Shown: positions 11,231 to 63,943 of the stretch, piece after piece
How the letters are laid out: each line of letters opens with the position of its first letter
Numbering within the stretch: position 1 is the stretch's first letter
From: Azoarcus sp. L1K30
GTDB taxonomy: Bacteria; Pseudomonadota; Gammaproteobacteria; Burkholderiales; Rhodocyclaceae
Reading direction: 5' to 3'
Length of the DNA stretch: 64,000 bases
NCBI RefSeq assembly: GCF_018122735.1
Contig: NZ_JAGRRD010000001.1
Location: 3,267,190-3,331,189, forward strand
Made by a program: the position numbers and the translations under genes
The notes under the pieces: generated by a model
What the model saw: the letters and a program-made list of their open reading frames with translations, nothing else
Database searches by the model: none
Told to the model about the DNA's origin: nothing

Positions 11231-11259
11231 GTCGCGTCTCCACTCTCGTTGTTGTTCTG

Positions 11260-12078
11260 TCAGGTGGCGGTCCAGCCGCCATCCACCGGCAGCTCCACGC
11301 CGGTGATCCAGGACGACGCCTCTGAAGCCAGGAAGCGCACCGCATGGGCAATGTCCGCCGGCTCGCCCATGCGCCCGATGGGATGGGCGTGCAGGAAGGC
11401 GGCACGCACCTCGTCCAGCGACGCGGTGCCGCCGGACAGGGCCTGGTTCTTGTGCAGGAAGGAATCGGCCATCTGGCTGGCGACCACGCCCGGATGGATG
11501 GAATTGCAGCGGATGCCGTAGCCGAGGCGGCCGCACTCGACCGCCACGTCCTTGGTAATCAGGCGCACCGCGCCCTTGCTGGCGCCATAGGCCGACAACC
11601 AGGGCACCCCGACGAGGCCGGCCACCGAGGACATGTTGATGATCGAGCCACCCCGCCCGGCCGCGCCGCCGGGCCGCATCGCGGTCACCGCCTGTTTGCA
11701 GCCGAGGAAGACGCCGTCCACATTGATGGTCATGAGGCGGCGGAAGTCATCGAGATCCACCTCGGTGATCGCCCCCATGATCTCGATGCCGGCGTTGTTC
11801 ACCAGCACGTCGAGGCCGCCGAAGCTGTCGACGGTGGCCGCGACGGCGGCCTCCCAGTCGGCTTCGCGGGTCACGTCGAGCGACAGGTAGTCGGCCTTTG
11901 CGCCGCTGGCGCGCAGCGTCGCGGCGGTGTCGTGGCCGATGTCGTCGAGCACATCGGTGAGCATCACCCGCGCACCGGCAGCGGCCAGGTGGCGGGCGCA
12001 TTCGGCGCCGATGCCGCGCGCCGCGCCGGTGATCAGCGCGACCTTGCCGTCGAGGCGGAAGGGATCGGCGGCGCTCAT
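11260..12078 (-). CDS. Short-chain dehydrogenase/reductase (secondary alcohol dehydrogenase candidate)
   Basis: 272 residues, a classical SDR. It has the TGAARGIGAE NAD-binding glycine motif near residue 17, the NNAGIEIMG strand, the catalytic Ser region (NMSSVAGLVG), the YGASKGAV active-site Tyr/Lys pair, and the C-terminal SSWITGVELPVDGGWTA. Its start overlaps the stop of the ApcE-like gene by 4 bp (ATGA), so they are co-translated. In the EbN1 acetophenone pathway an SDR (phenylethanol dehydrogenase) supplies the ketone, and this gene is the natural candidate for that step. Substrate specificity cannot be read from the sequence. Confidence 0.87.
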   Translation of the reverse strand: MSAADPFRLDGKVALITGAARGIGAECARHLAAAGARVMLTDVLDDIGHDTAATLRASGAKADYLSLDVTREADWEAAVAATVDSFGGLDVLVNNAGIEIMGAITEVDLDDFRRLMTINVDGVFLGCKQAVTAMRPGGAAGRGGSIINMSSVAGLVGVPWLSAYGASKGAVRLITKDVAVECGRLGYGIRCNSIHPGVVASQMADSFLHKNQALSGGTASLDEVRAAFLHAHPIGRMGEPADIAHAVRFLASEASSWITGVELPVDGGWTAT

Positions 12079-23072: not shown

Positions 23073-26000
23073 TTATTTAGGCGGATGCTTGCGTCGATTT
23101 CTATTAAGTTTAAACCCTTCAGGGACGGGCTTAAACGAATCCCCATTTTCCGGCCAGCGTTTGGCTCGACTTTGAAATGCACGTAAAGAGTCAATATCCA
23201 GCGTGGCAGCTATAACAAAATCGTTATCTCCACCGCGCACTCGTGCAATGTCCCGCACAAAGGATTCTTTTGCAGGGGAGCGTACACGGCTGTCACCGTA
23301 TTTCCGGTTATTAACCAGAATGGTGTAGGCATGCACATCCAATGCAGCGGATTCAATCAGCGAAGCAAAAGTCTCCAAGTCTTGGTTCCAACTCAGCACC
23401 ATTAATGCATCTACTTTCCCTTGAAACCTCACTCGGGCTTTGCTGTTTTGTAGCTCTGAACAGACCATCACTCCAAAATGAACATTGTTGTGCACATATA
23501 TTGGCTTGCTGCGTTGTCCTTGTAACCTAGACACAGCCCAGTGCTTGCCAAATTTTGCGGTCAACTCCTTGTCTTCGCCAACCGCTGGTTCCAGTTTGGG
23601 CTGCCAAATCTTTACTGTAGCCGGGTAGCCTAGCCGGTTATCAGTTAGTACCAGGCAGGCCTCACTCAGTAGTTGGCTATCCTCAAAGTGGCGGTACTCG
23701 GTTCCGGCAATTAGGCTTATACCTAAGGCGTTCAGCCTTGCTGCCACGCTATCTATCCATTTCAAAGGAATAGAGAGCTCCGGGAATACTAGGTAGTCAG
23801 GGCGAGGCTTAAGCCGAATAGCTTGGTTGACCAATTCGGAAATGCGCTGATACCTCTCACGAGATAAGTTTGGTCTATTGCTGGCCATTGCACCCCAATC
23901 TTTATCCTCTGTTTTGAGGTTGGTCAGTGCAATAGTTATCCTACTTTTTCGGTCAGTGCCAATCCGAACGTATATGCGTGACCTTGGGATATTCGGCATG
24001 TCGTTGCCATCCTGCTCTGTGGCAAGCAGAGTTGGCTTTATCCATACACCCCGAAGTGCCTGAGTGTATTGAGCCCATATTATCGAAGGCTTTTCTTGCC
24101 AACGCTTTCCGTCTACTCTTGGCAACCCTACACACTCCGGAGCAAGCTCCGATATTTCAGCAGGTGTGAGAGGACGAGTAGGAAAAAGATAGGGTAAAAC
24201 ACTTTCGTTCTTATGTTTCTCACGTTCAACTGCAGCAAGCCGGCTGAGACGGGTTGATTTCAAGAACCCTTTCAGTGCATCGGTATTTAATAGTTGCGAG
24301 GATTCCATCAGTTTGAGAATATGACTCTCCTTCTTACCTTGATGCTTCTCCATAAGCTGACCAGCAGATATGCTATGCAAGATGCGCTTATAAGGTTCTT
24401 TGGCAAGATCGGCCATGGCAACTAACGGAGCTTTCCGATAAAAATCCTCTGATCCAAATCGAAAATTGAGTAAGGATTCAACTTCAAGTAGGCTATCAAA
24501 AATTCCCTTCAAAAACAGCTCTGCTAGCCGCTGCTCTTTCTTTGAGCGCCGACCGAAAAATAATCGATTCGGGTCGTAATGGCGGGACGCTGCGTCAATA
24601 AATAGCCAAGTCAGAGTGCCTTTAACCATAGGCCATAAATTTTCCCCTGCCTTGGTGACAACACCGTTCACCGCGATAGGTTTTCCCTTGGGTATTGCTG
24701 TCGCCAATTGCTGCAAAGAATGGTATGCGCGTAATGCTATTTGTTCAGCCTGCAGCCATTCATTCAGGCTGATTGCAAAACCCAACAAACGGGGCAAGTA
24801 GGTAAAGTGAGCAAATAAGTTGTCTGGACGAAGTATGTGATTGTGAGCGAATTGATAAAACTCCTCGCGCTGCTCATGCCATTCTTGCGCAGGGAGATCT
24901 CGAGCCAGTGTCTCTACATGCCGTAGTTGTAACGACCAACTCAAACGGCGAATGGTCAAGCCATCGGCGCGACGTAAGGTATCTGCACTTTCGCCAACGG
25001 TGCCCGCTGCCGATAACACTCGGGCGGCAGTAGAGTCGTCAAGTTGATCAGGTGAGGGCATAAGTCTGTGCTCGCTAGACAGTTCACTAATCTCCTTCTC
25101 AATGCTGTCCAGCAGGTCGAGCCCCGCGCGACCTTGAAGCAAAAACATTTTCTGTTTGTCAGATTGCAGTTTTATCTGCGTTTTGCCTTGGAAATCCTTC
25201 CCCTGTTGTATCTGCCAAATTTTGTCATTAGCATTTCCCTCTTGAGAAACGACTTTTTTGCCCATTCTATCCTTCAAATACAGCATGAACTGCTGACTAT
25301 CGTTGATAGTCTTCGTGTCACGCAGTACCAAAAACATATCGTCCACATAGCGGCCATAATGGATTGGCGCAATGCGTTCTTTGATCAGCCTGTCCCAACG
25401 AGATAGCAATACATTAGAAATAATTCGGCTCGCAGTTAGGCCGATAACAAGTCCACCGGGAATTGCGGCTATCCCCGACGTAACCTTTCTTGAAAATTTG
25501 CCAGCCCCCTCGGACCAATGTTTGAGAAATTTAGCAAGATCTCTAGTGAATTTTTGCTCTTCATCACTTAGAGCAAGTCCTAGCTCCTCGTGAAGGACCG
25601 CTGAGGCCAAAGCCATTGGGTCGATAAAATGGTAATAACTTTTTAAATCTAACGAGACAGCGATAATTTCTCGGCCTTGCTCAAGCTCACCCCGAATAGC
25701 GTTAAGACCATCATTGCGCCACTTTTGATAGGGTTGAAAGTACGGTACAAATGAGCCTACAGCGCTAATATGAAAAGGCTTCTCGTCTGCCTCGCTAAAT
25801 AGCTCGTCGTCACGAATGCGTCTTAACCTAGCGCCGTAGCAACTAGTGGCTAGCTTAGCGTCAAAGCGATGCCCAACGGTATTGATCCATAATGCAGATA
25901 AAATATGCGTATCTACAGGGAAATCGCCAACCACTCGAAATTCCGGAACGATCTTGTTGTGTTCAAGCAGATGTACCACTGTGCGATCAGGATTTGAGAA

Positions 26001-26291
26001 GTGAACATGGCCATTTGCAGGCAAATTCTTCTTAGGCTTGTTGGACAGCTTTTTCGGAAGGAGACGAAAATCGCCCAGCAGTCTTTCATTACCTGAAAAT
26101 CCCTTGTCTTGATGCAGGTACTCAAGTAATTTTTTTAGATTAGCGAGTAAATCTCGTTCATAGTCTGCAAATTTTATGGCCGCTGGAAAGGTATTTTCAA
26201 AAAAACAATCAGCCTTAGCCTTTCGGTAGGCCACCAACAGATCTTCGAGCGTGATATCTTCCCAACCAGTAAACGTTGCTTGATAGCCCAT
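23073..26291 (-). CDS. Reverse transcriptase-nitrilase fusion (DRT type 1 / UG1 class anti-phage RT)
   Basis: 1072 residues in AT-richer DNA than its neighbours. The N-terminal half is a reverse transcriptase: motif A AVSLDLKSYYHFID (Asp215), motif B IPGGLVIGLTASRIISN (277-293), and motif C YVDD (Tyr315-Asp318), all catalytic Asp present. A helical linker follows. The C-terminal 260 residues are a nitrilase fold with the complete Glu-Lys-Cys triad: Glu838 in FPELSIP, Lys899 in WQPKLEP, Cys944 in GVMVCSEL. Unknown Group 1 RTs fused to a nitrilase domain are the single-gene defence systems called DRT type 1, which act against phage; the mechanism and nitrilase substrate are not settled. ATG at 26291 has AAAGGGA upstream. 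No group II intron RNA, retron msr/msd or CRISPR genes are nearby. Confidence 0.9.
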   Translation of the reverse strand: MGYQATFTGWEDITLEDLLVAYRKAKADCFFENTFPAAIKFADYERDLLANLKKLLEYLHQDKGFSGNERLLGDFRLLPKKLSNKPKKNLPANGHVHFSNPDRTVVHLLEHNKIVPEFRVVGDFPVDTHILSALWINTVGHRFDAKLATSCYGARLRRIRDDELFSEADEKPFHISAVGSFVPYFQPYQKWRNDGLNAIRGELEQGREIIAVSLDLKSYYHFIDPMALASAVLHEELGLALSDEEQKFTRDLAKFLKHWSEGAGKFSRKVTSGIAAIPGGLVIGLTASRIISNVLLSRWDRLIKERIAPIHYGRYVDDMFLVLRDTKTINDSQQFMLYLKDRMGKKVVSQEGNANDKIWQIQQGKDFQGKTQIKLQSDKQKMFLLQGRAGLDLLDSIEKEISELSSEHRLMPSPDQLDDSTAARVLSAAGTVGESADTLRRADGLTIRRLSWSLQLRHVETLARDLPAQEWHEQREEFYQFAHNHILRPDNLFAHFTYLPRLLGFAISLNEWLQAEQIALRAYHSLQQLATAIPKGKPIAVNGVVTKAGENLWPMVKGTLTWLFIDAASRHYDPNRLFFGRRSKKEQRLAELFLKGIFDSLLEVESLLNFRFGSEDFYRKAPLVAMADLAKEPYKRILHSISAGQLMEKHQGKKESHILKLMESSQLLNTDALKGFLKSTRLSRLAAVEREKHKNESVLPYLFPTRPLTPAEISELAPECVGLPRVDGKRWQEKPSIIWAQYTQALRGVWIKPTLLATEQDGNDMPNIPRSRIYVRIGTDRKSRITIALTNLKTEDKDWGAMASNRPNLSRERYQRISELVNQAIRLKPRPDYLVFPELSIPLKWIDSVAARLNALGISLIAGTEYRHFEDSQLLSEACLVLTDNRLGYPATVKIWQPKLEPAVGEDKELTAKFGKHWAVSRLQGQRSKPIYVHNNVHFGVMVCSELQNSKARVRFQGKVDALMVLSWNQDLETFASLIESAALDVHAYTILVNNRKYGDSRVRSPAKESFVRDIARVRGGDNDFVIAATLDIDSLRAFQSRAKRWPENGDSFKPVPEGFKLNRNRRKHPPK

Positions 26292-26608
26292 TGTGGTCCC
26301 TTTTAATTCTGCTGATGGCAGGCCATTATTAGCTTGAAATACCAGTCTCCAGGCTAATGATTGGTTTATTCTATCGCTTTTGGTTATCTAAATGCGACCC
26401 CGGTGGATTTTTTGTTGGCTGCAATTATCACCAACGGGTGCTTTTCGTAGATAGTTGCCATGCTAGCACATTGGATTAACCGGCATATTTGGCAGAGGAG
26501 CGAAGTTGCCTGAGTGACTGCCGCACTCAAGAATTTGCCGCTGATTTGTCGTCTGGTTGGATGTCTCTTATGGGTCGATGGCTGCCGCAAAGAGCCACAC
26601 TACCTAGC
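26292..26608. other. AT-richer leader region upstream of the RT gene
   Basis: 317 bp with no convincing gene. It precedes the reverse transcriptase on the minus strand, so it should hold its promoter and perhaps a structured leader or non-coding RNA. A 6-bp inverted repeat (ATTAGC at 26328-26333 with GCTAAT at 26353-26358) and a GTTGG/CCAAC pair around 26413-26435 are visible, both weak. A TAATAA hexamer (minus strand) near the first repeat could serve as a -10 box. Confidence 0.35.
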
Positions 26609-26632
26609 AAAAAGGGCTCCAGAGGGAGCCCT
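26609..26632 (-). terminator. Rho-independent terminator, minus strand, beyond the broken CaiB gene
   Basis: An 8-bp perfect stem (AGGGCTCC at 26613-26620, GGAGCCCT at 26625-26632) with AGAG loop is followed on the minus strand by a T run (A-run 26609-26613). It lies about 70 bp past the end of the CaiB remnant, as expected for the original end of that transcript. It also insulates the RT gene from read-through. Confidence 0.8.
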
Positions 26633-26699
26633 TCAACGTCTTTCTCATCGCCCGTGGCAAGAAATCTCACTTATCTGGCACAGATCGCATCATTTATGG

Positions 26700-27047
26700 C
26701 ACCAGAAACCCCAGTTCGCGAAGAATTGCAGCGGTATCTGCGCCCGGGCTTGGTACCTCCCCGCCCACCGCGCCCGGCGTGCGGCTGAAGCGTGGTGCTG
26801 GCGCGGGCTGGTAGATGCCGTCGACCTCGATGAAGGCCTTGCGCGCCCGGTTGTGCGGATGGTCTGACGCCTCGTCCAGCGACAGCACCGGCGCCACGCA
26901 GGGATCACCGCGCTCGAACAACGCGCACCAGTCCTAACGCGTGCGGGTAGCGAAGATCGCTTCGAGCCGGGCGTGCAGGGCTAGCCAGCGGGCCGGGTCG
27001 TACTGGGCCTGCCAGTCGGCATCGTCCAGCCCCAGCACCTCGCCCAG
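26700..27047 (-). pseudogene. CaiB/racemase-like CoA-transferase remnant (C-terminal third, with nonsense codon)
   Basis: The minus strand encodes FERGDPCVAPVLSLDEA, then HNRARKAFIEVDG, SRTPGAVGG and DTAAILRELG. This closely matches the last third of the intact CaiB-like protein encoded at 30868-32028. An in-frame TAG replaces the Glu codon in the TRTREDW segment, and homology stops abruptly near 27047, where a REP-like repeat begins. The nucleotide match is clear but far from identical, so this is an old paralogue or decayed copy and not a fresh duplication. Its terminator survives downstream. Confidence 0.85.
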
Positions 27048-27052
27048 TAAGC

Positions 27053-27139
27053 GTAGCCCGGACAAGGCCCGAAGGGCCGCCTCCGGGAATCATCGGTTGA
27101 GCAGTCAGCCATCCCGGATTCCGCTTCGCTGCATCCGGG
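27053..27139. repeat. Paired REP-like palindromic repeats
   Basis: Two imperfect palindromes lie 25 bp apart: 27053-27088 (CCCGGA ... TCCGGG with an internal GGCCCGAAGGGCC stem) and 27113-27139 (CCCGGAT ... ATCCGGG around a CGCTTCGCTG core). Both have the form of extragenic REP/BIME units common in proteobacteria. They begin exactly at the truncation point of the CaiB remnant. Confidence 0.65.
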
Positions 27140-27546
27140 CTATGGAACGAGCGGCAATGGGGCCGACGGCGACTAGAGCGCAGATCGGATTCGGGTCTAG
27201 CGTTGTTGCATTCAACATCCCGTCGCTGGCTGACGATGAGACCACGTGGGTACGCTCCTCCGGCGAGGGAAGTAAGTCCGCCCTGACCCCGACGTCGGCG
27301 CGCGGGTTTTGGTCTGCCGCTGACGAAGCAGCGTCCTTCGACTTCGCCTGCCCACAATACCTCTGAGCGCAACCATCTGTGGCCTCGGCTCCGGCCTATG
27401 CATCTCGGGTCTTGCATCGACCGGGAGCTCAAGGCAATATGACGTGACTATTTATTTCAACGTCATTGATTGATACTCGACCATCGGCAGGGAATCATCA
27501 CTTAATTGAAATTCCTGCACTCACCCAGAACACACGGGAAAGACAC
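27140..27546. other. Intergenic stretch without recognisable gene
   Basis: About 400 bp. GC-rich to about 27440, then AT-richer toward the lipoprotein gene. Short open frames exist on both strands but none resembles a known protein or has a ribosome site. The change in composition near 27440 may mark a junction between two acquired segments. The promoter of the lipoprotein operon should lie in the last 100 bp. Confidence 0.4.
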
Positions 27547-28074
27547 ATGAGAAAGCTACTGATACCCGCACTTGCATTGATGCTATTGACATCATGCGCG
27601 TCGCGCGGCACAACCGCATTATTCTTTAGCCCCACGTTTAGAGCCAACATCCCCGAAAGCGAAATGATCGGAGGCACCATCTTTCAATCGGAAGAGCTTT
27701 CCTTGAAGACCGCAGCAGGACGGTCAATATCTGGCAAGACAATATCCAACGCAACCGAGGAACTGCCCGGCGATTTCGATATCCATGAATATCCAAAATA
27801 TCTGCTTGGTGTACTGGAAATTCCGGCCAACCTGCCTAGCAGCAAGAATTTCTCGTCATCGAGAATGGAAATTGACCACACATACGGGATAGAGAATCTA
27901 AGAATATTGGAAGACAGTCGCTCAATTTCCTATCTGTTATGCAGATCGGAGTCTTGCTTGGCTTTTGTCGTCAGCAGATCTTTCCATGATCACATTCTTA
28001 CCATCCACTCAGATGGCTACAGCGAAGCGGAATTCACGAGCTTTATAAGGGGAAACGTTGATGTTAAGCGCTGA
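27547..28074 (+). CDS. Small lipoprotein of unknown function
   Basis: 175 residues. The ATG at 27547 follows GGGAAAG and opens a lipoprotein signal (MRKLLIPALALMLLTSC, lipobox LTSC, Cys17). The mature part is polar with a few hydrophobic strands and a central HEYPKYLLGVLEIP segment; I recognise no family. Codon use is clearly AT-richer than the surrounding chromosome, indicating horizontal acquisition. It overlaps the next small gene by 14 bp, so the two form a coupled operon. It sits just upstream of the IS91-like element and may be cargo of it. Confidence 0.7.
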   Translation: MRKLLIPALALMLLTSCASRGTTALFFSPTFRANIPESEMIGGTIFQSEELSLKTAAGRSISGKTISNATEELPGDFDIHEYPKYLLGVLEIPANLPSSKNFSSSRMEIDHTYGIENLRILEDSRSISYLLCRSESCLAFVVSRSFHDHILTIHSDGYSEAEFTSFIRGNVDVKR

Positions 28075-52284: not shown

Positions 52285-54192
52285 CTAGAACTGCTTCACC
52301 TGATTCAACTCATAAGCGTTCTTCTTCTCCGATCCGGATTCCCACGGCTGCTTGCCGATATGATGAACGTTGATTGAATCCAGGAATGCGGTCCGGAAAC
52401 CCATAGCCGTAAAGCGGTCTGCGAATTCCTTCTCGAAATGGCCACCGCCTTCGTCATAGCGGCCGATCGACCGGATCTTGTCCACGAGACTCAGCGAAGG
52501 ATGCAGGGAATAGTTTGGCCACCAGGCATTGGTCCGCGATCCCGGCGGCATCGCCTTGAGGTAGGCGTCGAAAGACTCCGGCGGCACGTACTCATGCATC
52601 ACGTACCGGCTTCCATCCTGCGAAATCGTCCTCGATTCACCGCCGGTGAGGGTGATATGTGCCGGTATCAGACCGTAATTCCGATTGAACAGCACCTGGG
52701 CGATGGCTGGATCATCGTGCAGGATAGCGAGCATCCGGGCGAAAAAACGGTCCTTCACCACGAACTGCCAGTCGTCTTCGAGAGCAAGCCAGTAAGGCGT
52801 ATCGATGCGGTCCAGCAGCATGTTCATGCTTCTGGCGTGGCCCTTCTCCGATGCATCCTTCAGAACAAACTCGAAGAACGGGTAGAGTCGAGCCATCTCG
52901 GCGCGGTCTGCCTCGCTGGACCCATCGTCAATACAAATCCAGCGACGAATCCGGTCCACATCCTCACAGCAGTTCAGGAACGAGTTGACGGTCACCTTGA
53001 ACAAGTCGAGACGACGGCAACTGGTAATGGTGAAGGTTACATCGCCGTCCTGTTCGGTCCGGCTCGCCAGCGCATGCACGATGTGCTCGGGGTAGGCGCC
53101 GGTTCCTTGCGGTACATGGGGCGCGGAGTATTCGCGGTTCTTCTCGATTCGGACCCTGTCCGTCTCCGTCAGGTCGGATCGCCGCAGGATGTCGGAACAG
53201 AGATCGTAACTCTCCTGATATCTGCCTTCGTAAAAAGCGCAAATCGAGACCTCGTCTGCCAGACGCCAGTTGAAGGTCTCGACCTCGACGAACAGGCGAT
53301 CGCTCGTCCGGCATCCGGTCTCCAAGGCTCGTCGCCCAAAAAGATAACCCAGGCCGAAATCGCTACATGCTCTGTAATAACAGCAGATTCGATACAGCGG
53401 CTCAATCCGGTGCTTTCGAAACGACCATGCCTTGAGATACGCGTCCAGGGCCTCGGGCCATCGCTTCATGGACTCCAGCAGCACACCGCACTGGTACAGA
53501 CTGAAAAAGACCTCTTCGTCCCATCCACCCATCGCCGCACGATGCCGATAGGCCTCGAGTGCCTTCTTCGGCTCCTTCGCATCGCGCCAGCTCTGTGCAA
53601 GATAGAAGGCATAGCGGGTGTTACCGGGTTCCTTCTTCAAGGCTGCAGCCAGAATGGCGGCATCCTTGCGGTAAGTAAGCGGGTCGCGGCTCCGAGCGCC
53701 TTCATGGCGCCGGTCTACCCACGGCCCCTGCAATTCCGACGATACGGATTCCGGGGTCGAGACCAGGTACTCGTGGAGCACGCCAACCCAGCGCCAGGCC
53801 AGCCTGTCGGCCACCAGCAGACGCAAGCGGTATTCCGTGTTGGCGCTCCTGATCAGCAGATCATAGGCGTCGACGGTCAGCGCGGGCCAGTGCCACCCCT
53901 CCCGCGGCGCATGAAAAATGTTGTCCGCATCCATGATCAGGATGTAATCGGCCTTACCCCTGGCCAGTTCGATCGCCTCCGTCCGATTGTGGCCAAAATC
54001 GACCCACTTACGGTGATGCAACTCGCCGGGGATGCCCTTCAGCGTCGCCTGGATCTTTGCCGGCGTGTCGTCGGTGGAGCCGGTGTCGACGATCACCCAG
54101 TAATCAATGTGATCCTTCACCGATGCGAGACAGCGGTCGATCACCGCGGACTCGTTCCGGACGATCATGTTCAGACAGATCGCGGGTTTCAA
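52285..54192 (-). CDS. Two-domain glycosyltransferase with TPR-like linker
   Basis: 635 residues. The N-terminal GT2 domain (GT-A fold) starts MKPAICLNMIVRNESAVIDR and has WVIVDTGSTDDT and the DxD motif in LIMDADNIFHA. A middle region of paired helices (TRYAFYLAQSWRDAKEPKKALEA) is TPR-like. A second GT-A-like domain follows from about residue 385: FTITSCRRLDLFKVTVNSFL, ICIDDGSSEADR, and LALEDDWQFV, a second metal-binding acidic motif. Two catalytic domains in one chain suggest sequential addition of two sugars. The gene lies downstream of a collagen-like protein gene on the same strand. Confidence 0.83.
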   Translation of the reverse strand: MKPAICLNMIVRNESAVIDRCLASVKDHIDYWVIVDTGSTDDTPAKIQATLKGIPGELHHRKWVDFGHNRTEAIELARGKADYILIMDADNIFHAPREGWHWPALTVDAYDLLIRSANTEYRLRLLVADRLAWRWVGVLHEYLVSTPESVSSELQGPWVDRRHEGARSRDPLTYRKDAAILAAALKKEPGNTRYAFYLAQSWRDAKEPKKALEAYRHRAAMGGWDEEVFFSLYQCGVLLESMKRWPEALDAYLKAWSFRKHRIEPLYRICCYYRACSDFGLGYLFGRRALETGCRTSDRLFVEVETFNWRLADEVSICAFYEGRYQESYDLCSDILRRSDLTETDRVRIEKNREYSAPHVPQGTGAYPEHIVHALASRTEQDGDVTFTITSCRRLDLFKVTVNSFLNCCEDVDRIRRWICIDDGSSEADRAEMARLYPFFEFVLKDASEKGHARSMNMLLDRIDTPYWLALEDDWQFVVKDRFFARMLAILHDDPAIAQVLFNRNYGLIPAHITLTGGESRTISQDGSRYVMHEYVPPESFDAYLKAMPPGSRTNAWWPNYSLHPSLSLVDKIRSIGRYDEGGGHFEKEFADRFTAMGFRTAFLDSINVHHIGKQPWESGSEKKNAYELNQVKQF

Positions 54193-54386: not shown

Positions 54387-55259
54387 TTACTGGAGCTGCA
54401 AAATCGTAAATCGGGCCCCTTGACCCGGGGGACCAGAAAGCGTAATCGCTACGGCACTGTTGTTTCGCAACGTGAGCACGTCCCCAGCATTAAGATTCAT
54501 CATCGCCGTGTTGTTGAGTACATCGGTACCAGTCAACAGATCGATGCTCGTACTTGGGTCAACAGTACCATTCACGGCAACTGCAATTGCCGCGCCGATT
54601 CCGGCTGTATAGCTCACACCGTAATCGACCTTGTAGGTCGCGGTAGCCGCGACAGTTAGCGTTGTAGTCGCAGCGGTATGGGTTACTCCAGACAAGGGGC
54701 CGTTGTTCGAAAACGCTACATCGGCACCACCAACAACGATATCCGAGCCAATTTGGTATACATAACCAAAGGTTCCTCCCATACCTGCAGGCCCGGTGGG
54801 ACCTGTCGGCCCGGTATCGCCCGTGGGCCCGGTATCGCCCGTGGGCCCGGTATCACCCGTCGGTCCCGTAGGACCGGTGGGTCCCGCAGACCCCACCGGT
54901 CCCTGAATACCCTGTGTTCCCTGAATACCTTGAGGTCCCGTGGGTCCGGTTGGCCCCGTAGGCCCGGTCGGTCCGGTCGGCCCCACGCCCACACCACCGG
55001 CACAAGGCCCCAATACGCCACTGGCATCGAAACAGGTCAGATTGTTATTGGCCGTTGCGGTGGGCAAACCGGGAATGCTGACCACCCCCCCTTCACTGAC
55101 GCGGAAGCGGTCCGACGAATCGGCATTGTTACGCACCGAGAAGCCGTCGCCGGAAGGAGGAACAACAGTGACATCGGCCGCATTCACCGCGCCAACCTGA
55201 GACAGGAAGCCGAGAATCAGTGCGGAACACAGGCGGGAAGGGCAACGGGAAAAAGTCAT
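54387..55259 (-). CDS. Collagen-like surface protein with BclA-like C-terminal head
   Basis: 290 residues. Signal peptide in the first 27 residues. Residues 91-160 are about 22 Gly-x-y triplets, mainly GPT, GDT and GIQ, the collagen triple-helix pattern. The C-terminal 125 residues ([43 protein letters not shown]) resemble the C1q/TNF-like trimeric head of Bacillus BclA. The short N-terminal part ([16 protein letters not shown]) is typical of tail-fibre-like bacterial proteins. It should form a trimeric stalk-and-head outside the cell. The many Thr residues in GPT triplets are possible O-glycosylation sites. The two-domain glycosyltransferase gene is 194 bp downstream. Confidence 0.88.
54808..54861. 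repeat. Three tandem 18-bp repeats inside the collagen-like gene
   Basis: An 18-bp unit (GGCCCGGTATCGCCCGTG) occurs three times in a row at 54808-54825, 54826-54843 and 54844-54861, the last with one base change. Each adds two collagen triplets (GDTGPT). Such repeats readily change copy number, so the stalk length may vary among strains. Confidence 0.85.
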
Positions 55260-55314: not shown

Positions 55315-55998
55315 TCAGATCGCCACGCGTCGGCGAATCAAGGGTACGACCGCCATGAGCATGGCCAGAATCGCCAGCGCCCATGCGTTCAGCGTGGGAA
55401 TCGCCGTGGTGCTTGCGGGCGCTCCGATAAAGACGTTTCCGCTGACATTCGCGTTCGATCGAACCACGGTCGCACCCGGGCCGAGCAGGATGGTCGCGGG
55501 CGAACCCGAAGAGGACACGACGGAAATCGGCTGCCCGACCGTCCCCTGCAACGTCAGCGTGCCGTTCACGGTAATGCTGCTACCGGAAGGAATCACATAG
55601 GTATGACCCGACGTACTGGACAGGGTCAGGTTGTTGAACACTGTCGAACCGGTCAGCGCACTGCTGCCCGACGCACAACCATCGGTCAACACGACCGTCC
55701 CGCTGCCGGGGACGAACGTACCGAGGTTATTCCAGTCACCGCTCAGGGTAATTGAACCACTCCCGCCATTGAGCACGCCCGTAGCGTCGATTCCCACGGT
55801 CAGACCCTGCGTCACCGATCCGCTATTGACGTTCATCGCGCCCTGCACAAGCAGATCCGTACAGGCGAGATTCATACTCCCACCCGGCGGAACGCTCACG
55901 CTTCCCCCCACGGGCACGGTCACCTGCGCAAAAGCCTGCATGGAGAAAGCAAAGAGCAATGACGCCCCGATTTTGAGAAGCGGACGAACGGTCATCAA
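55315..55998 (-). CDS. IPTL-CTERM sorted secreted protein
   Basis: 227 residues. Signal peptide MMTVRPLLKIGASLLFAFSMQAFA, then a beta-rich region with repeated V-x-G-x-LTL patterns like a small beta-helix. The C-terminus is the IPTL-CTERM tripartite tail: IPTLNAWALAILAMLMAVVPL followed by RRR. This tail is predicted to be processed by an exosortase-like or archaeosortase-like enzyme and anchors or releases proteins at the outer surface. No sortase gene is in view. It is 55 bp upstream of the collagen-like gene on the same strand. Confidence 0.85.
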   Translation of the reverse strand: MMTVRPLLKIGASLLFAFSMQAFAQVTVPVGGSVSVPPGGSMNLACTDLLVQGAMNVNSGSVTQGLTVGIDATGVLNGGSGSITLSGDWNNLGTFVPGSGTVVLTDGCASGSSALTGSTVFNNLTLSSTSGHTYVIPSGSSITVNGTLTLQGTVGQPISVVSSSGSPATILLGPGATVVRSNANVSGNVFIGAPASTTAIPTLNAWALAILAMLMAVVPLIRRRVAI

Positions 55999-59295: not shown

Positions 59296-60039
59296 TCAGG
59301 GCCAGAACTTTCCGCAGAAACCCAAGTAGCGATAGGGCAGACCCGGCACGGCCGGTTCTGTTCCCAAGGGCTCCAAGGTCACAGCCAAACGGGAAACGTT
59401 CGCCAACAGCGCCTCGGCCGTGCCATCCAGCGCAATACTGCCCTGACTGCCAGCGGGCAAGGGGCCGATCGCGACAGCTGCACTGCCATCGGCGGGCAAG
59501 CCCCAGAGATAGAAGACCTGGCCTTCAGGCGGCGTCTCAGGTTTGACGAACTTGAAGTCGGCACTGCGGCCATGACGCAAGCTGCTGACCAGCAGGCCGG
59601 CACCCCCTGCTTCGTTTGCCAGCACGCCAACATAGCTTGGCGGCAACTGGGTCTTGCCAGCAGCGCTCAATGCCGGCGACTGCGATCCGCCACGACCCAA
59701 GTCAGGGATAAGCTGGCCACCGACGAAACCAACCATTACACCGACCGCGGCCCAGCCAAGCGCAGGGCGCAGCAGCCGGTCGAACCAGCGTACCGCCCGT
59801 GCAGGTGCGGTCAATTCCAGACGTTGATCAATGGCCTTCCACACCGTCACGCTTGGAGTGACAGGTTCAAGCGTCAGCGCAAGCGGCGCCAGACGGATCT
59901 GGGCATCGTCCACCAGCGCCTGCAGGCCCACATCGTCTCGCAGCAAACGCTTGAAGCGGGAACGAACGAGCGGACTCAAGGAACCCAACGCATAGGCTGA
60001 AGCCAGCTGCCTGCGTAACTCGGGATTGTCATATCGCAT
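59296..60039 (-). CDS. Anti-sigma factor, RskA-type
   Basis: 247 residues. N-terminal cytosolic anti-sigma domain (MRYDNPELRRQLASAYALGSLS, RFKRLLRDDVGLQALVDD), one TM (LGWAAVGVMVGFVGGQL near residue 95) and a periplasmic RskA domain with FVKPETPPEGQVFYLWGLP. It should bind and hold the ECF sigma factor encoded 3 bp upstream and release it on a signal at the envelope. No zinc-binding HxxxCxxC motif is seen. Last gene of the CsgG-like operon. Confidence 0.88.
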   Translation of the reverse strand: MRYDNPELRRQLASAYALGSLSPLVRSRFKRLLRDDVGLQALVDDAQIRLAPLALTLEPVTPSVTVWKAIDQRLELTAPARAVRWFDRLLRPALGWAAVGVMVGFVGGQLIPDLGRGGSQSPALSAAGKTQLPPSYVGVLANEAGGAGLLVSSLRHGRSADFKFVKPETPPEGQVFYLWGLPADGSAAVAIGPLPAGSQGSIALDGTAEALLANVSRLAVTLEPLGTEPAVPGLPYRYLGFCGKFWP

Positions 60040-60042
60040 GGA

Positions 60043-60609
60043 TCAGGCTTCCATGCAGCGTTGCAGACGCTGAAGACTGCGCCGAATCCACGCCTTGACC
60101 GTTCCCACCGGCTGAGCCAGCCGCACAGCGAGATCGCGATGCGTCAGGCCGTCGAAGTAGGCCAGCATTATTGCTTGACGCGGCGCGGCTTCAAGTTGGT
60201 CGATGCAGTGGCTCAGGCGCTTGTCTTCGCACTGCTGAAGAAGAGATTCCTCAGGCGTCAGACCATCACTCGCCACATCCACCGTGCGCGTTTCACCGTC
60301 ACCATCGGTCACTTCAAACGGTAAGTGGTTGGGGCGCGAGCGGCCAATATCCAGTGCCTTGTTGCGCACCAGCGTCGCGAGCCAGGCCATCGCTGGCGCG
60401 CGATGCGCTTGATAGCGGCCAGCGTGGTGCCAGAGCGCGACGAAGGCTTCCTGCAGTGCGTCTTCTGCAAGTGCGCGCTCGCCCCCGAGCAGACGCAACG
60501 CTATCGGATACAGGCGCGCGGCACTCGCGTCATAGACCGCACGCAACGCAACGCGATCGCCGAGCGCCACGCGCCCGATGAGGACTTCGAGCGCAATGCC
60601 CGAGTTCAC
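60043..60609 (-). CDS. ECF RNA polymerase sigma factor
   Basis: 188 residues. Region 2 has LLGGERALAEDALQEAFVALW, and region 4 has QAIMLAYFDGLTHRDLAVRL followed by PVGTVKAWIRRSLQRL. It belongs to the ECF group paired with RskA-like anti-sigma factors. Its ATG overlaps the stop of the CsgG-like gene by 4 bp (ATGA), so it is translated with the export genes. This suggests an autoregulated surface-response unit. Confidence 0.9.
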   Translation of the reverse strand: MNSGIALEVLIGRVALGDRVALRAVYDASAARLYPIALRLLGGERALAEDALQEAFVALWHHAGRYQAHRAPAMAWLATLVRNKALDIGRSRPNHLPFEVTDGDGETRTVDVASDGLTPEESLLQQCEDKRLSHCIDQLEAAPRQAIMLAYFDGLTHRDLAVRLAQPVGTVKAWIRRSLQRLQRCMEA

Positions 60610-62105
60610 TTCGCCGCAGCCCGCCCAAGCTGACGGCTGGCAACCGCCACCGGTTCGCGCGCCACCGCTTCAAGCATGGACTGCACATCGGAGAATTCAC
60701 GAACCTTGTTCAGATCCTGGAAATCACCCCACCGCAAAGCAGCCGGAATATCGTTGTAAATCTCTCGCGGCGCCGCAAAACAAGCTACCGGTACGGTGCC
60801 GCTCTCACCCGGGATCAGCTTGAATCCCTGACGCCCAGGCAGCAGAAGGGGTTGCCCCGGCTCGATGCGCGGATCGCTGACGAAGCGGTTGGGAAAGATG
60901 CGCTGCAGCTTGCCGCCGGCCGTGCGCGCATAGCAGTACACATAGGCCGGTGCGCTACTGCTGACACTGAAGCCGAGCCCCTCACCGGCACCTTGTTCAA
61001 CCGCATCCAACGCCAGGGCAATACGCGCGGCCGGCGCTTGCGCGGCGGGCAGCACATCACGCGCAGCAACCGCCGGCGGGTTGGGGAAGGGACCTTCGAG
61101 GAAAACCGTAAAGAAGGCCAGATCGACAGCAGGCGTATCGCCCATGCCCAGTGCGGCGCGATAGCTGCTTACCGCCTGACGCAGCGCTGGCGTCACGTTG
61201 CCATCGGCCGGACCATCATAAAAGCCGCGATTGCGCAGTTGGGTCTGGAAATAGGCCGTCAGCTCGCCGCCGCGCTCCATGCCGACGAACCAGTCCTCGA
61301 TTTCTTCGCGCACCTCCGGATTACGCGCATCGGCGCCAAGGCACTGCCAGTAGGGCAACTTGAGCAGCCGGCCGAAGAGCTCGACGGACGACAATTCGAC
61401 CATGTTGCGCAAGGCCTGGGCCGTGCCGTCGGTACGCTGGAAGGAGGTACTGAAATTGATGCCGATCTTGGAGAAAGTGGCCTGAGCATCGAGCGCATCG
61501 CCTTCCTTGACGATGGTCGTCAGGTTCTTTGACACGACCCCCGGAATGAGGGTCAGGCGTGTCGTGTCGGCCAGTGCCACATCGAGCCCAAGTACATTGA
61601 ACTGGCGACTGGTTGAGGCACCGGCACCGAGCAGGTTGCCGAGCGACACACCTCCATCGGCCTGACGTTTGAGCACACCTTCGTCAAGCTGGCTGATCGA
61701 CCCCCGCAGATTGAACTGGGGCACGACGGCGAAGGCGGTGCGCTTTTGCGCATTGGCCAGAAACGCCACGGCATTGTTCGCATCCTGCCCGAAAGCGCTG
61801 ACCTCGATGGCACGGCTGCGGCGGGTCTGATCCGACAGCGCCGACATCATCATGTCGCGCGTACCGGCACTGACCTTGCGCGTGCTGTCGGAAAGATCCT
61901 CGAGCACCACGCTCACGTCTCGCACACCGTAGGAGATATACAGCTTGTCCATGCAGCGCAGGGCGTCGGAAAAATTGGTGACGTTCCGTTGCGGCAGTGT
62001 TTGCGGTGGCGCAACTGCGGCAAGCACATCATCCTTTTTAGGCGGAAGCGATGTACATGCGCTAAGTGCGAGAAGCGCAAGAAGCCAGATCGGTTTTTGG
62101 GTCAT
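60606..62105 (-). CDS. CsgG-like lipoprotein with peptidoglycan-binding and DUF4384 domains
   Basis: 499 residues. Lipoprotein signal MTQKPIWLLALLALSAC (lipobox LSAC, Cys17). Residues 45-260 resemble CsgG, the curli export channel: VSVVLEDLSDSTRKVSAGTRDMMMSAL, FNLRGSISQLDEG, LGLDVALADTTRLTLIPG and MVELSSVELFGRLLKL. A peptidoglycan-binding-like stretch follows (RNRGFYDGPADGNVTPALRQ), then a C-terminal DUF4384-like domain (APAYVYCYARTAGGKLQRIFPN). The protein may form an outer-membrane pore with extra periplasmic domains. It lies between the secreted repeat proteins and the ECF sigma gene on one transcript. Confidence 0.78.
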   Translation of the reverse strand: MTQKPIWLLALLALSACTSLPPKKDDVLAAVAPPQTLPQRNVTNFSDALRCMDKLYISYGVRDVSVVLEDLSDSTRKVSAGTRDMMMSALSDQTRRSRAIEVSAFGQDANNAVAFLANAQKRTAFAVVPQFNLRGSISQLDEGVLKRQADGGVSLGNLLGAGASTSRQFNVLGLDVALADTTRLTLIPGVVSKNLTTIVKEGDALDAQATFSKIGINFSTSFQRTDGTAQALRNMVELSSVELFGRLLKLPYWQCLGADARNPEVREEIEDWFVGMERGGELTAYFQTQLRNRGFYDGPADGNVTPALRQAVSSYRAALGMGDTPAVDLAFFTVFLEGPFPNPPAVAARDVLPAAQAPAARIALALDAVEQGAGEGLGFSVSSSAPAYVYCYARTAGGKLQRIFPNRFVSDPRIEPGQPLLLPGRQGFKLIPGESGTVPVACFAAPREIYNDIPAALRWGDFQDLNKVREFSDVQSMLEAVAREPVAVASRQLGRAAAK

Positions 62106-62133
62106 GGAATGAGCGCAGAAAAGGGATGATGGA

Positions 62134-62460
62134 TCAGCGGCAGTTGTTACCCGCCTGAATGATATCGCCGGTAATGATCACCGTCGTCTCGCGCTTGGCC
62201 GACGTACCGATTTTCTTGTCGTCCTCAAACACGTTTCCGACTGCGATCGTGCACCCATTGTCAAAGGTCGTGAGCCCTCCCCCGCCACTTGAACCCGGTG
62301 ACTCGCCATCAAGGCGGGCGCGTGCACGATCTGAAGCACGCGCTGCCTGCTCGCTCTTCGCGCGTGCAATACGGGCATTCACGTCGTCGGGAATGTCCGG
62401 TGTTCCGGCGAACACCGGCGTCACTACGAACATCATCGACAGACACATACGCCGGAGCAT
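62134..62460 (-). CDS. Small secreted protein of the CsgG-like operon
   Basis: 108 residues. I chose ATG 62460, which opens a signal peptide (MLRRMCLSMMFVVTPVFA). The mature part has a charged Ala/Arg helix (RIARAKSEQAARASDRARARL), a Gly/Ser linker and a C-terminal beta-rich part (GCTIAVGNVFEDDKKIG, TVIITGDIIQAGNNC) with two cysteines. No family is recognised. By position it could be an accessory or chaperone for the repeat protein, like CsgE/F/H in curli, but sequence similarity to those is not visible. Its start lies 22 bp beyond the stop of the repeat protein gene. Confidence 0.65.
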   Translation of the reverse strand: MLRRMCLSMMFVVTPVFAGTPDIPDDVNARIARAKSEQAARASDRARARLDGESPGSSGGGGLTTFDNGCTIAVGNVFEDDKKIGTSAKRETTVIITGDIIQAGNNCR

Positions 62461-62482
62461 GGCCGCGGACGCCTTCCCGCGC

Positions 62483-63811
62483 CTATTGCGCACCTTCGAC
62501 TCCACCCACCAGAACACGCTGGGCTCCACCACTGGAACCCTGTGCGGTCTGGCGAACATCGCCTGTCACCGTCACGTTGGTGGAGACATTGCCGCCATTG
62601 GCATTGCGCACACTGCCAAGATTGATGGACTGAACGCTATTGCCGACAGCCGTTGCCGACTGGCTCAGATCACCCGTCACTTCAGCCCGCGTGTTCACGA
62701 CTGCTGCTGTATTCTCGGCACTGCCGATCGAGATGTTCTGCGACGTGTTGACCGAGTTGGTCGCATCTTGCGTAATGGCGCCGCTGCTGGCCGCTTCGGT
62801 AACTGCCTGCGTGCGAGAACCGTCCACGCTGCCCACCGACAATCGTTGCTGAACATTGCGATTACCGGACTGGCTCTGGCTGATCGCACCGGCAGTCGTC
62901 GCATTCGTCTGAATATTGCCTCGCGAATTCGTCGCACTGCCCACCTCAACCCGCTGACTGTTACCCTCAGACGGCGCCCCACCGCCGGCCGTCTGGGTAA
63001 CCGACCCGAGCACGTTACCGTTGGTTCTGGCCTCGAGCGGCGAGCCACCACGCACACTTCCAACCTCGATCCGCTGCTCGACGATACTGTCGGCAGACTG
63101 CGTCACCGCACCGCTCACCGTACCGCGAGACAACACACTGCCAGCCGCATCCACGTTGTTCACTGCGCCAACACCGAGTGACTGAACACCCGCCCCTGTC
63201 GCACCCCTGACTTGTGTAACACCCCCGCTCACGCTACCGCGAGCATTGACGCTCGACGCCTGGCTGCCTGAAATGCTGCCGACTTCGACACTTTGCGCAT
63301 TGGCCGAAGTGCCGCGGATACTCCCGCTACTGGACTGGATGACGCCTGCGCCGGTGATTTCACCACGGGTGGTGGCTGCACCCACGTCCGAGCCCACCAG
63401 ACTTCCGGCACCCACTCGCTGATCCACCGCTGCAGCACCGGTCGCACTCTGCACCACATCAGCCGCAATACCGCCGTCGAGTGTCGCGCTGTTGGCACGC
63501 GTGCCACCTTCCACACCGGCCACCGACACAGACTGGGTCGCGGCACCCGGACCTGTCTGCGTCTGCTGAACATTACCTGTCAGCGAACCGCGCGTACTCA
63601 GATTGTTCACGCCATTGGCCGGCGTTCCGCCCCCCTGGCTTGCCGGGGCCGACCCCACGGCCGACCCGGAGGGCCTCTGCACAACGGGCAACTGCACCTT
63701 TTCGGTAGTAACCAGCGTGTTGGAAACACCATCCTTCACGGTTTGCGCAAAAAGCGGCGTGCACGCGAGACTCAACATGGCGATCAGCAGGGGGCGGGGG
63801 GTGCTTTTCAT
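62483..63811 (-). CDS. Secreted ten-repeat protein, amyloid/beta-solenoid-like
   Basis: 442 residues. ATG at 63811 begins a signal peptide (MKSTPRPLLIAMLSLACTPLFA). After a 45-residue lead, residues 69-442 consist of ten imperfect repeats of 34-41 residues with the pattern RG-x-V-x-G-x-V-x-Q-(S/T)-x-x-G ... Q-x-(V/I)-x-V-G-S-V. They are rich in Gly, Ser, Asn, Gln, Thr and Val, with few charges and no cysteines. The regular Gln and Asn spacing recalls curlin-type amyloid repeats, but the unit is longer (about 37 versus 22). It is the first gene of the operon with the CsgG-like channel. The assembled structure is inferred. Confidence 0.78.
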   Translation of the reverse strand: MKSTPRPLLIAMLSLACTPLFAQTVKDGVSNTLVTTEKVQLPVVQRPSGSAVGSAPASQGGGTPANGVNNLSTRGSLTGNVQQTQTGPGAATQSVSVAGVEGGTRANSATLDGGIAADVVQSATGAAAVDQRVGAGSLVGSDVGAATTRGEITGAGVIQSSSGSIRGTSANAQSVEVGSISGSQASSVNARGSVSGGVTQVRGATGAGVQSLGVGAVNNVDAAGSVLSRGTVSGAVTQSADSIVEQRIEVGSVRGGSPLEARTNGNVLGSVTQTAGGGAPSEGNSQRVEVGSATNSRGNIQTNATTAGAISQSQSGNRNVQQRLSVGSVDGSRTQAVTEAASSGAITQDATNSVNTSQNISIGSAENTAAVVNTRAEVTGDLSQSATAVGNSVQSINLGSVRNANGGNVSTNVTVTGDVRQTAQGSSGGAQRVLVGGVEGAQ

Positions 63812-63943
63812 GATCAATTCTCCAGTTTCGGGGGCGCGGACGGGTACCGCTTGGAGATACTTCGTTCCGTATCCTAGTTTGGATGCACCCCGGGTGGAAT
63901 TTATTTCTTCGACCACTCGAAAATCCGCCCCCAACGCCTCCGA

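Follow-up and report, generated by a model that had tools for sequence, protein, structure and literature searches.

A probable CsgG/HfaB-type export locus for a predicted β-helical repeat protein in Azoarcus sp. L1K30

Studied members of the CsgG superfamily export proteins, and the described systems closest to the locus reported here are curli and the holdfast anchor HfaABD of Caulobacter. The curlin repeat has about 23 residues and two strands (PMC10192328, excerpt), and the arrival of HfaA and HfaD at the cell surface depends on HfaB (PMC6707917, excerpt). We analysed a 64,000-nucleotide stretch of Azoarcus sp. L1K30 DNA (the window) and found a set of five minus-strand genes at 59296-63811, with every open reading frame (ORF) at the position given in the original prediction. 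Export signals could be recognised by eye on all three module proteins (repeat, small and exporter). The features are:

62483-63811, minus strand: repeat gene, encoding a secreted ten-repeat protein of 442 residues (ORF list, repeat analysis, AlphaFold2 model, orthologues)
62134-62460, minus strand: small gene, encoding a secreted protein of 108 residues, with the ATG at 62460 as preferred start (orthologues, family searches)
60606-62105, minus strand: exporter gene, encoding an exporter-like lipoprotein of 499 residues (domain scans, profile comparison)
60043-60609, minus strand: ECF sigma factor gene, product with cysteines at 127, 135 and 185 (ORF list, Pfam and NCBIfam domains)
59296-60039, minus strand: anti-sigma factor gene, product with an RskA_C domain (ORF list, Pfam and NCBIfam domains)
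63861-63887, minus strand: candidate ECF promoter block with the pattern TGCATCCAAAC-N11-ACGAA, which begins 76 bases ahead of the repeat gene

The ORF list also offers a longer form of the small gene that reaches 62559 and overlaps the repeat gene. A 4-base overlap, GTGA (60606-60609), joins the exporter and sigma genes, and by ORF coordinates three bases lie between the sigma and anti-sigma genes. Elsewhere in the window, a glycosyltransferase-like ORF occupies 52285-54192.

The exporter and its relation to CsgG and HfaB

The exporter carries a lipobox read by eye (L-S-A-C, residues 14-17), a CsgG/HfaB-like N-terminal half, a sub-threshold peptidoglycan-binding region (286-321) and DUF4384 (374-446). 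DUF4384 scored above its Pfam cut-off (E 4.2e-11), and the peptidoglycan-binding match reached 20.1 bits, under the 23-bit cut-off. Pfam CsgG (PF03783) matched neither the exporter nor anything else in the window's own genome, and the NCBIfam HfaB model gave 18.7 bits (E 7.7e-4), short of its 300-bit cut-off. In profile comparison, the mature N-terminal half scored 95.5 against HfaB (probability 98.0%), with a maximum of 20.2 among 60 column-shuffled controls. It scored 49.4 against CsgG (shuffled maximum 24.0), using a profile built from 19 loci with weak HfaB-model matches, among whose genomes PF03783 was checked in 3 and curlin repeats in 12. Two unrelated families scored 20.8 and 13.5 against the exporter profile. 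The HfaB test is a rerun in which the mature regions were trimmed and 60 shuffles and these two families served as controls; with the untrimmed HfaB alignment one of five column shuffles had reached 99.1%, which may be due to gap columns.

The exporter profile also matched solved CsgG chains (E 0.042-0.19, profile positions 133-201), and a 44% identical exporter in genome G554 contains a PF03783 match below cut-off (E 0.0086). PF03783 matched in three of 11 exporter-bearing genomes (G699, G407 and G479), each time elsewhere than in the exporter. The lipobox cysteine is absent from distant exporter relatives (L027-L030), and OmpA-like proteins lie near several relatives. An AlphaFold2 model of the exporter built from six sequences was unusable (pLDDT 41.8). 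By profile, the N-terminal half appears to be a remote member of the CsgG superfamily, closer to HfaB than to CsgG; to the HfaB family itself it is a relative and not a member. The protein had been predicted to be a CsgG-like lipoprotein with extra domains; profiles support the superfamily link, DUF4384 stands, and the peptidoglycan-binding match is sub-threshold.

Curlin repeats (PF07012) were found in none of 11 exporter-bearing genomes and in all 12 comparison genomes, and CsgE and CsgF were each found in 0 of 11 and in 3 of 3; the window's own genome had no match to any of these three. The earlier claim that curli partners are not recognisable extends to the 11 exporter-bearing genomes. 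Plain curli membership was rejected on these results and on the failure of PF03783 to match the exporter, and an assignment of the window repeats as curlin was likewise rejected (profile score 7.0, shuffles up to 9.3). Like curli, the locus pairs a CsgG-superfamily exporter (by profile) with a secreted repeat protein bearing regularly spaced Gln, and its small partner may be nucleator-like. Unlike curli, its repeats are about 37 residues long with three predicted strands, and its exporter has 499 residues as against 262-285 for CsgG chains.

The repeat protein and its small partner

The repeat protein consists of a signal peptide (by eye), a stretch of low model confidence up to residue 66 and, as originally described, ten repeats, which measure 35-41 residues and share a mean mutual identity of 32% (range 19-43%). 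Two columns of the repeat hold Gln in every one of the ten copies, and the 20 Gln so defined are invariant in five orthologues; of the remaining positions 76 of 356 are invariant, and of the remaining Gln 1 of 9. These 20 positions were chosen once the invariant orthologue columns were known, and the repeat alignment shows that they coincide with the two all-Gln columns. Four of the five orthologues are 43-47% identical to the window protein.

AlphaFold2 predicted a β-helix over residues 67-442 with 30 strands, three per repeat (mean pLDDT 79.6, pTM 0.78; 218 residues at 90 or above and 136 at 70-90). The original prediction would have fallen with a disordered repeat protein that never accompanies the channel gene; the model is ordered, and the genes co-occur. 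For near-perfect repeats AlphaFold2 can yield confident yet unrealistic β-solenoids (PMC11795689, excerpt); the paper reports no such bias for AlphaFold3. All 61 matches from a Foldseek search with the repeat model had E above 0.001, the best being Pontibacter CsgA (E 0.31), and single-protein PDB sequence searches gave nothing useful. The repeat protein is predicted to be a ten-turn β-helix in which the two invariant Gln per repeat would make two ladders, and these paired Gln may resemble the curlin core (PMC10192328, excerpt).

The small protein is 61-69% identical to the window copy in four orthologous loci. Its C-terminal motif, C-x-I-x-V-G-N ... T-T-V-I-I-x-G-D-I-I-Q-x-x-N-N-C, looks like one repeat closed by two cysteines. 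In profile comparison with the window repeat unit it scored 11.5 against 9.9 for shuffles, a borderline result (E 0.04) from a cleaner rerun of a comparison that had given E 0.0015; against a second repeat class, described below, it scored 10.0, below the shuffled 11.1. Neither the repeat nor the small protein of the window had a Pfam or NCBIfam match above curated cut-offs, nor did their relatives in two scans of ten proteins each; some of these gave sub-threshold matches, the nearest being DUF3853 (22.0 versus 22.1 bits).

Recurrence of the gene set and of the sigma pair

The co-encoding of exporter, repeat and small proteins, noted originally in the window, was borne out by a gene-neighbourhood survey: the three genes recur, with their order kept, in L036, L037, L038, L040 and L101, and the set is found in Accumulibacter, Rhodoferax and Curvibacter. 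Exporters of window-type loci group in a single clade with 95/95 support, and a secreted repeat partner is usual within the close exporter clade. Among 399 sampled genomes the repeat protein was found in two, beside the exporter both times, and the small protein in 12, where all ten hits with E of 2.3e-10 or lower sit at most 1.4 kb from an exporter gene; absences in the genome searches are not proof, because the best few candidates per genome were scored. A single-sequence contig scan for relatives reached close relatives only. A second class of repeat is encoded upstream of the exporter in eight further loci, from other genomes within the order. Profile comparison relates the two classes, with a score of 23.8 where 20 shuffles reached at most 12.3; a comparison of single units, from a flawed alignment, was weak (11.4, shuffled controls up to 10.5). 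One locus, L110, has the exporter and sigma pair and is without the repeat and small genes.

Pfam placed RskA_C (PF10099, E 4.5e-12) in the anti-sigma protein and sigma regions 2 and 4 above cut-off in the sigma factor. The pair is present in two of six close loci and one distant locus; the order exporter, sigma, anti-sigma also occurs in L036 and L110, and the pair was not found in L037, L038 or L040, nor downstream in L039. The pair is thus an accessory and not a fixed part of the module; the coupling noted originally is seen in the window as the GTGA overlap between exporter and sigma genes. Like SigK-RskA (ECF18/19) pairs, the window has an RskA_C anti-sigma adjoining an ECF factor, whose cysteines fall near SigK-RskA positions 133 and 183 by residue number, unaligned (PMC7509140, excerpt); unlike those, the pair here closes an exporter operon.

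The candidate promoter block is shared with L036, where the sigma pair is present, and was not found in L037, L038 or L040, which are without the pair. An 11-base word is common to the upstream regions of the window and L036, and 2 of 300 mononucleotide shuffles reached the same. A shorter form of the pattern is not specific, with 72 genome matches versus 17 for a reversed control, and across the studied loci the pattern was found 8 times (the window site counted twice) versus 10.2 expected by simulation. What marks the block as a putative promoter is its position together with the shared 11-base word.

Proposed assembly and alternatives

Together our results suggest that the locus probably codes for the export and assembly, by a CsgG/HfaB-type system, of a surface β-solenoid, either a fibre or an adhesin. 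It combines a probable exporter with a ten-repeat protein that has a predicted β-helix and two rows of Gln, so its product may be a cell-surface structure of a new kind. In this model the lipoprotein would oligomerise to form a pore in the outer membrane, with its C-terminal region tethering it to the cell wall, and the repeat protein would cross the pore unfolded and wind into a β-helix outside, there stacking to form a fibre or adhesive layer on the surface, or decorating one. The small protein might stay at the pore, acting as a nucleator, a cap or an anchor. In Azoarcus sp. L1K30 and Accumulibacter, the ECF/RskA pair at the operon end may turn the operon on via the promoter before the repeat gene. 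A bolder version, which we offer tentatively as a possibility, is a third branch of the CsgG superfamily besides curli and the holdfast anchor, with a wall-tethered pore, a fibre of wide three-sided β-helices locked by two Gln ladders, a small disulphide-closed single-repeat starter and, in some hosts, its own envelope-signal sigma factor. Among the matches listed in open-licence literature on CsgG, DUF4384, HfaB and the holdfast anchor, curli in Betaproteobacteria and Accumulibacter amyloid, the module is undescribed.

The exporter's higher profile score with HfaB than with CsgG would also suit an anchor of the HfaABD kind, in which the exporter would place a short β-helical protein, together with the small one, on the outer membrane, where they would retain exopolysaccharide without forming a long fibre. 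Caulobacter HfaABD likewise joins a CsgG-type outer-membrane lipoprotein to small and large secreted proteins: in HfaB loci, with ORFs read by eye, one small and one large low-complexity repeat protein adjoin the exporter, and the dependence of HfaA and HfaD on HfaB points the same way. However, equating the repeat protein with HfaD and the small protein with HfaA lacks clear profile support. The former scored 20.4, barely above the shuffled maximum of 19.8, against two hand-assigned HfaD-like sequences, and the latter 13.6, barely above 13.2, against five hand-assigned HfaA-like sequences. None of the five operon genes looks like a polysaccharide gene when the ORF list is read by eye, and the gene order differs. 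Unlike HfaB, whose model (NF037935) has 264 positions in a comparison by model length, the window exporter extends into peptidoglycan-binding-like and DUF4384 regions, and an ECF/anti-sigma pair may follow window-type exporters. We regard such an anchor as somewhat unlikely.

In predicted fold class the repeat protein resembles the β-helix adhesins (EtpA, Vag8 and the filamentous haemagglutinin secretion domain), and the β-helix proteins in the structure-match list are for the most part stand-alone adhesins or enzymes rather than fibres. The secretion routes of EtpA, Vag8 and filamentous haemagglutinin differ from the one proposed here, and we know of no paired Gln ladder in these three. A purely monomeric role for the repeat protein, as a commonplace secreted adhesin or matrix component with a β-helix, seems unlikely. 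Known β-helix proteins match as a fold class only, with no significant Foldseek match, and the paired Gln here may resemble those of the curlin core (PMC10192328, excerpt). In a very unlikely reading, the exporter-like lipoprotein forms no pore and acts instead in the periplasm, bound to the wall, in a structural or sensory role, with the repeat and small proteins as periplasmic envelope scaffolding read by the RskA/ECF pair. The peptidoglycan-binding-like and DUF4384 regions in its C-terminal half, the loss of the lipobox from some relatives and the OmpA-like neighbours of several others would fit, but the N-terminal half joins by profile a superfamily in which the studied members are protein exporters (for HfaB, PMC6707917, excerpt), and exporters of the close clade usually have a secreted repeat partner.

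The export-and-assembly system that we favour is overlooked by the CsgG, CsgE, CsgF and curlin models, all four of which are negative in its own genome. With a three-strand repeat, as against the two strands of curlin, it is a natural case in which to ask whether a Gln-ladder β-solenoid polymerises. If our reading is true, CsgG-type export has been reused beyond what curli and holdfast anchors show, and Accumulibacter, Rhodoferax and Curvibacter would have an unrecognised surface protein system.

The operon and its exporter

Five consecutive genes on the minus strand, identified by ORF reading, make up the operon.

First gene within 63811-59296, minus strand: secreted ten-repeat protein, 442 residues
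Start taken at 62460, minus strand: small secreted protein, 108 residues
Third gene within 63811-59296, minus strand: lipoprotein (the exporter), 499 residues
Fourth gene within 63811-59296, minus strand: ECF sigma factor (Pfam sigma regions 2 and 4)
Last gene within 63811-59296, minus strand: anti-sigma factor (Pfam RskA_C)

The exporter and sigma genes overlap by GTGA. The lipoprotein contains DUF4384 and a sub-threshold Pfam match to a peptidoglycan-binding domain, and a profile of 18 exporter relatives matched an L,D-transpeptidase in its wall-binding region at E 0.0012. Scanning the window proteins with Pfam and NCBIfam gave no name to the repeat or small protein. Two further surface-type proteins are encoded near the operon on the same strand: 54387-55259 specifies a collagen-like protein that has a BclA_C domain, and 55315-55998 one with an IPTL-CTERM sorting signal. 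G+C is clearly lower at 24001-28000 (0.47-0.53, versus 0.58-0.71 in most of the window).

The Pfam CsgG model had no match anywhere in the window's own genome, and NCBIfam returned a weak HfaB match for the exporter. From HfaB-model matches in 299 genomes of the phylum, we built an HfaB profile (ten strong loci, five above cut-off) and a CsgG-like profile (19 weak loci), and compared both with the exporter N-terminal half after removing signal peptides. The exporter scored 95.5 against the HfaB profile and 49.4 against the CsgG-like profile (maxima of 60 column shuffles, 20.2 and 24.0), with two unrelated families at 20.8 and 13.5 and the HfaB versus CsgG-like comparison, our yardstick, at 151. 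With the 18-relative profile, CsgG chains of known structure matched at E values between 0.042 and 0.19, and Pfam CsgG touched the exporter of another sampled genome (G554), 44% identical to the window's, at E 0.0086. Based on these scores and matches, the exporter is, at the level of sequence, a remote CsgG-superfamily member on the HfaB side. Its structure prediction, at a mean pLDDT of 41.8, was too poor to show a fold. The exporter relatives L027-L030 have signal peptides that carry no lipobox cysteine, whereas the window exporter has one.

By the features tested (Pfam CsgG, curlin repeats, CsgE and CsgF) the operon does not class as a curli system, nor does it class as HfaABD by the NCBIfam cut-off; HfaB is the nearest known relative found here. 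An earlier study takes non-specific CsgG hits as a sign of a larger family and reports two curli systems in Betaproteobacteria (PMC3521004).

Recurrence of the module

A genome-contig scan with the exporter sequence found five loci 73-76% identical to it.

L036: Accumulibacter
L037 and L038: two Rhodoferax
L040: Curvibacter
L039: truncated betaproteobacterial contig

The order repeat, small, exporter is kept in all four close loci with upstream sequence (L036, L037, L038 and L040). Among the window and close loci, only the window and L036 carry the sigma/anti-sigma pair 3' of the exporter; in L037 and L040 the gene after the exporter ends, by reading, in a PEP-CTERM-like stretch.

Three profile searches covered 399 genomes of the order, the identity of the genome sets being judged from handles. 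The exporter profile matched in 21 genomes, the small-protein profile in 12 and the repeat-protein profile in 2 (G000 and G699), each repeat match adjoining an exporter. The ten small-protein matches of E 2.3e-10 or lower are each no more than 1.4 kb from an exporter gene; for the remaining two, at E 8.8e-4 and 0.0027, the genome gave no exporter match. Of the 21 genomes matched by the exporter profile, 10 thus also gave a small-protein match.

In Accumulibacter, the stretch just upstream of the module (L036:2940-5181) contains a transposase-like gene with its ATP-binding partner, which by reading are IS21-type. Flanking genes differ among the window, L036 and L038, as would be compatible with horizontal spread.

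Repeat classes and the exporter tree

Proteins built of a second repeat class lie upstream of exporters roughly 38-46% identical. The repeats are 30-35 residues long, follow the pattern xxQxQSGxxNxQxMxIGN and scored 23.8 by profile against the window class with two unit copies each (maximum of 20 shuffles, 12.3). Across 36 exporter loci, a small-protein profile matched immediately upstream of the exporter, no more than 1.3 kb away, in 20; a further 4 had the match about 2.4-2.8 kb downstream of it. Of the 24 loci, 12 had not contributed to the profile. The repeat profile matched upstream in 14, all of which except L102 had contributed to it, and an ECF factor was present in 8, six of them contributors to the ECF profile. 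One locus, L110, orders exporter, sigma and anti-sigma as in the window; the scan found neither repeat nor small gene there. Another, L105, encodes a second QSG-class protein downstream of the exporter (10826-12001; 391 residues, 12 profile hits), with an ECF factor next.

In a tree of 33 exporters (L109 left out), window-type loci formed one clade (7 rows, support 95/95) and second-class loci sat in an adjacent group (8 rows, L023 included, 97/97). Repeat class thus follows the exporter.

Neighbours of distant exporter genes (L024-L030, L111 and L020) include, varying by locus, OmpA-like proteins, a conserved roughly 300-residue HExxH protein and small secreted proteins with C-terminal cysteines; L020 has an annotated adenylate/guanylate cyclase near the exporter gene. 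Directly 3' of two remote exporter genes are a 703-residue protein with Q-N-I-G-type repeats (L032:9781-11892) and a 1010-residue protein (L031:9022-12054), both bearing C-x-x-I-G-N-I-G and then Cys near the C-terminus.

Possible regulation and proposed mode of action

In the window and L036 the repeat gene is preceded by a common block, TGCATCCAAAC followed after an 11-base gap by ACGAA, beginning 76 and 88 bases, respectively, before the start codon; 2 of 300 shuffles reached the shared 11-base word. For L037, L038 and L040, which have no sigma pair, no more than 8 bases upstream are in common. This candidate promoter block, from two loci, is suggestive, a shorter promoter pattern being common across the window's genome.

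Across 22 small-protein sequences the C-terminus largely conserves one pattern: Cys, then a short [IV]-x-[IV]-G-[NST] segment, a linker, V-x-V-x-x-[GK]-[DEP]-[VI]-[IV]-[NQ], and Cys at the end. L105 and L112 are among those that deviate. It looks like a single repeat closed by two cysteines, on a borderline profile comparison. By analogy, we infer that the system would work like curli or the holdfast anchor, with an outer-membrane exporter and dedicated repeat substrates, in which the small protein may be a nucleator, cap or anchor.
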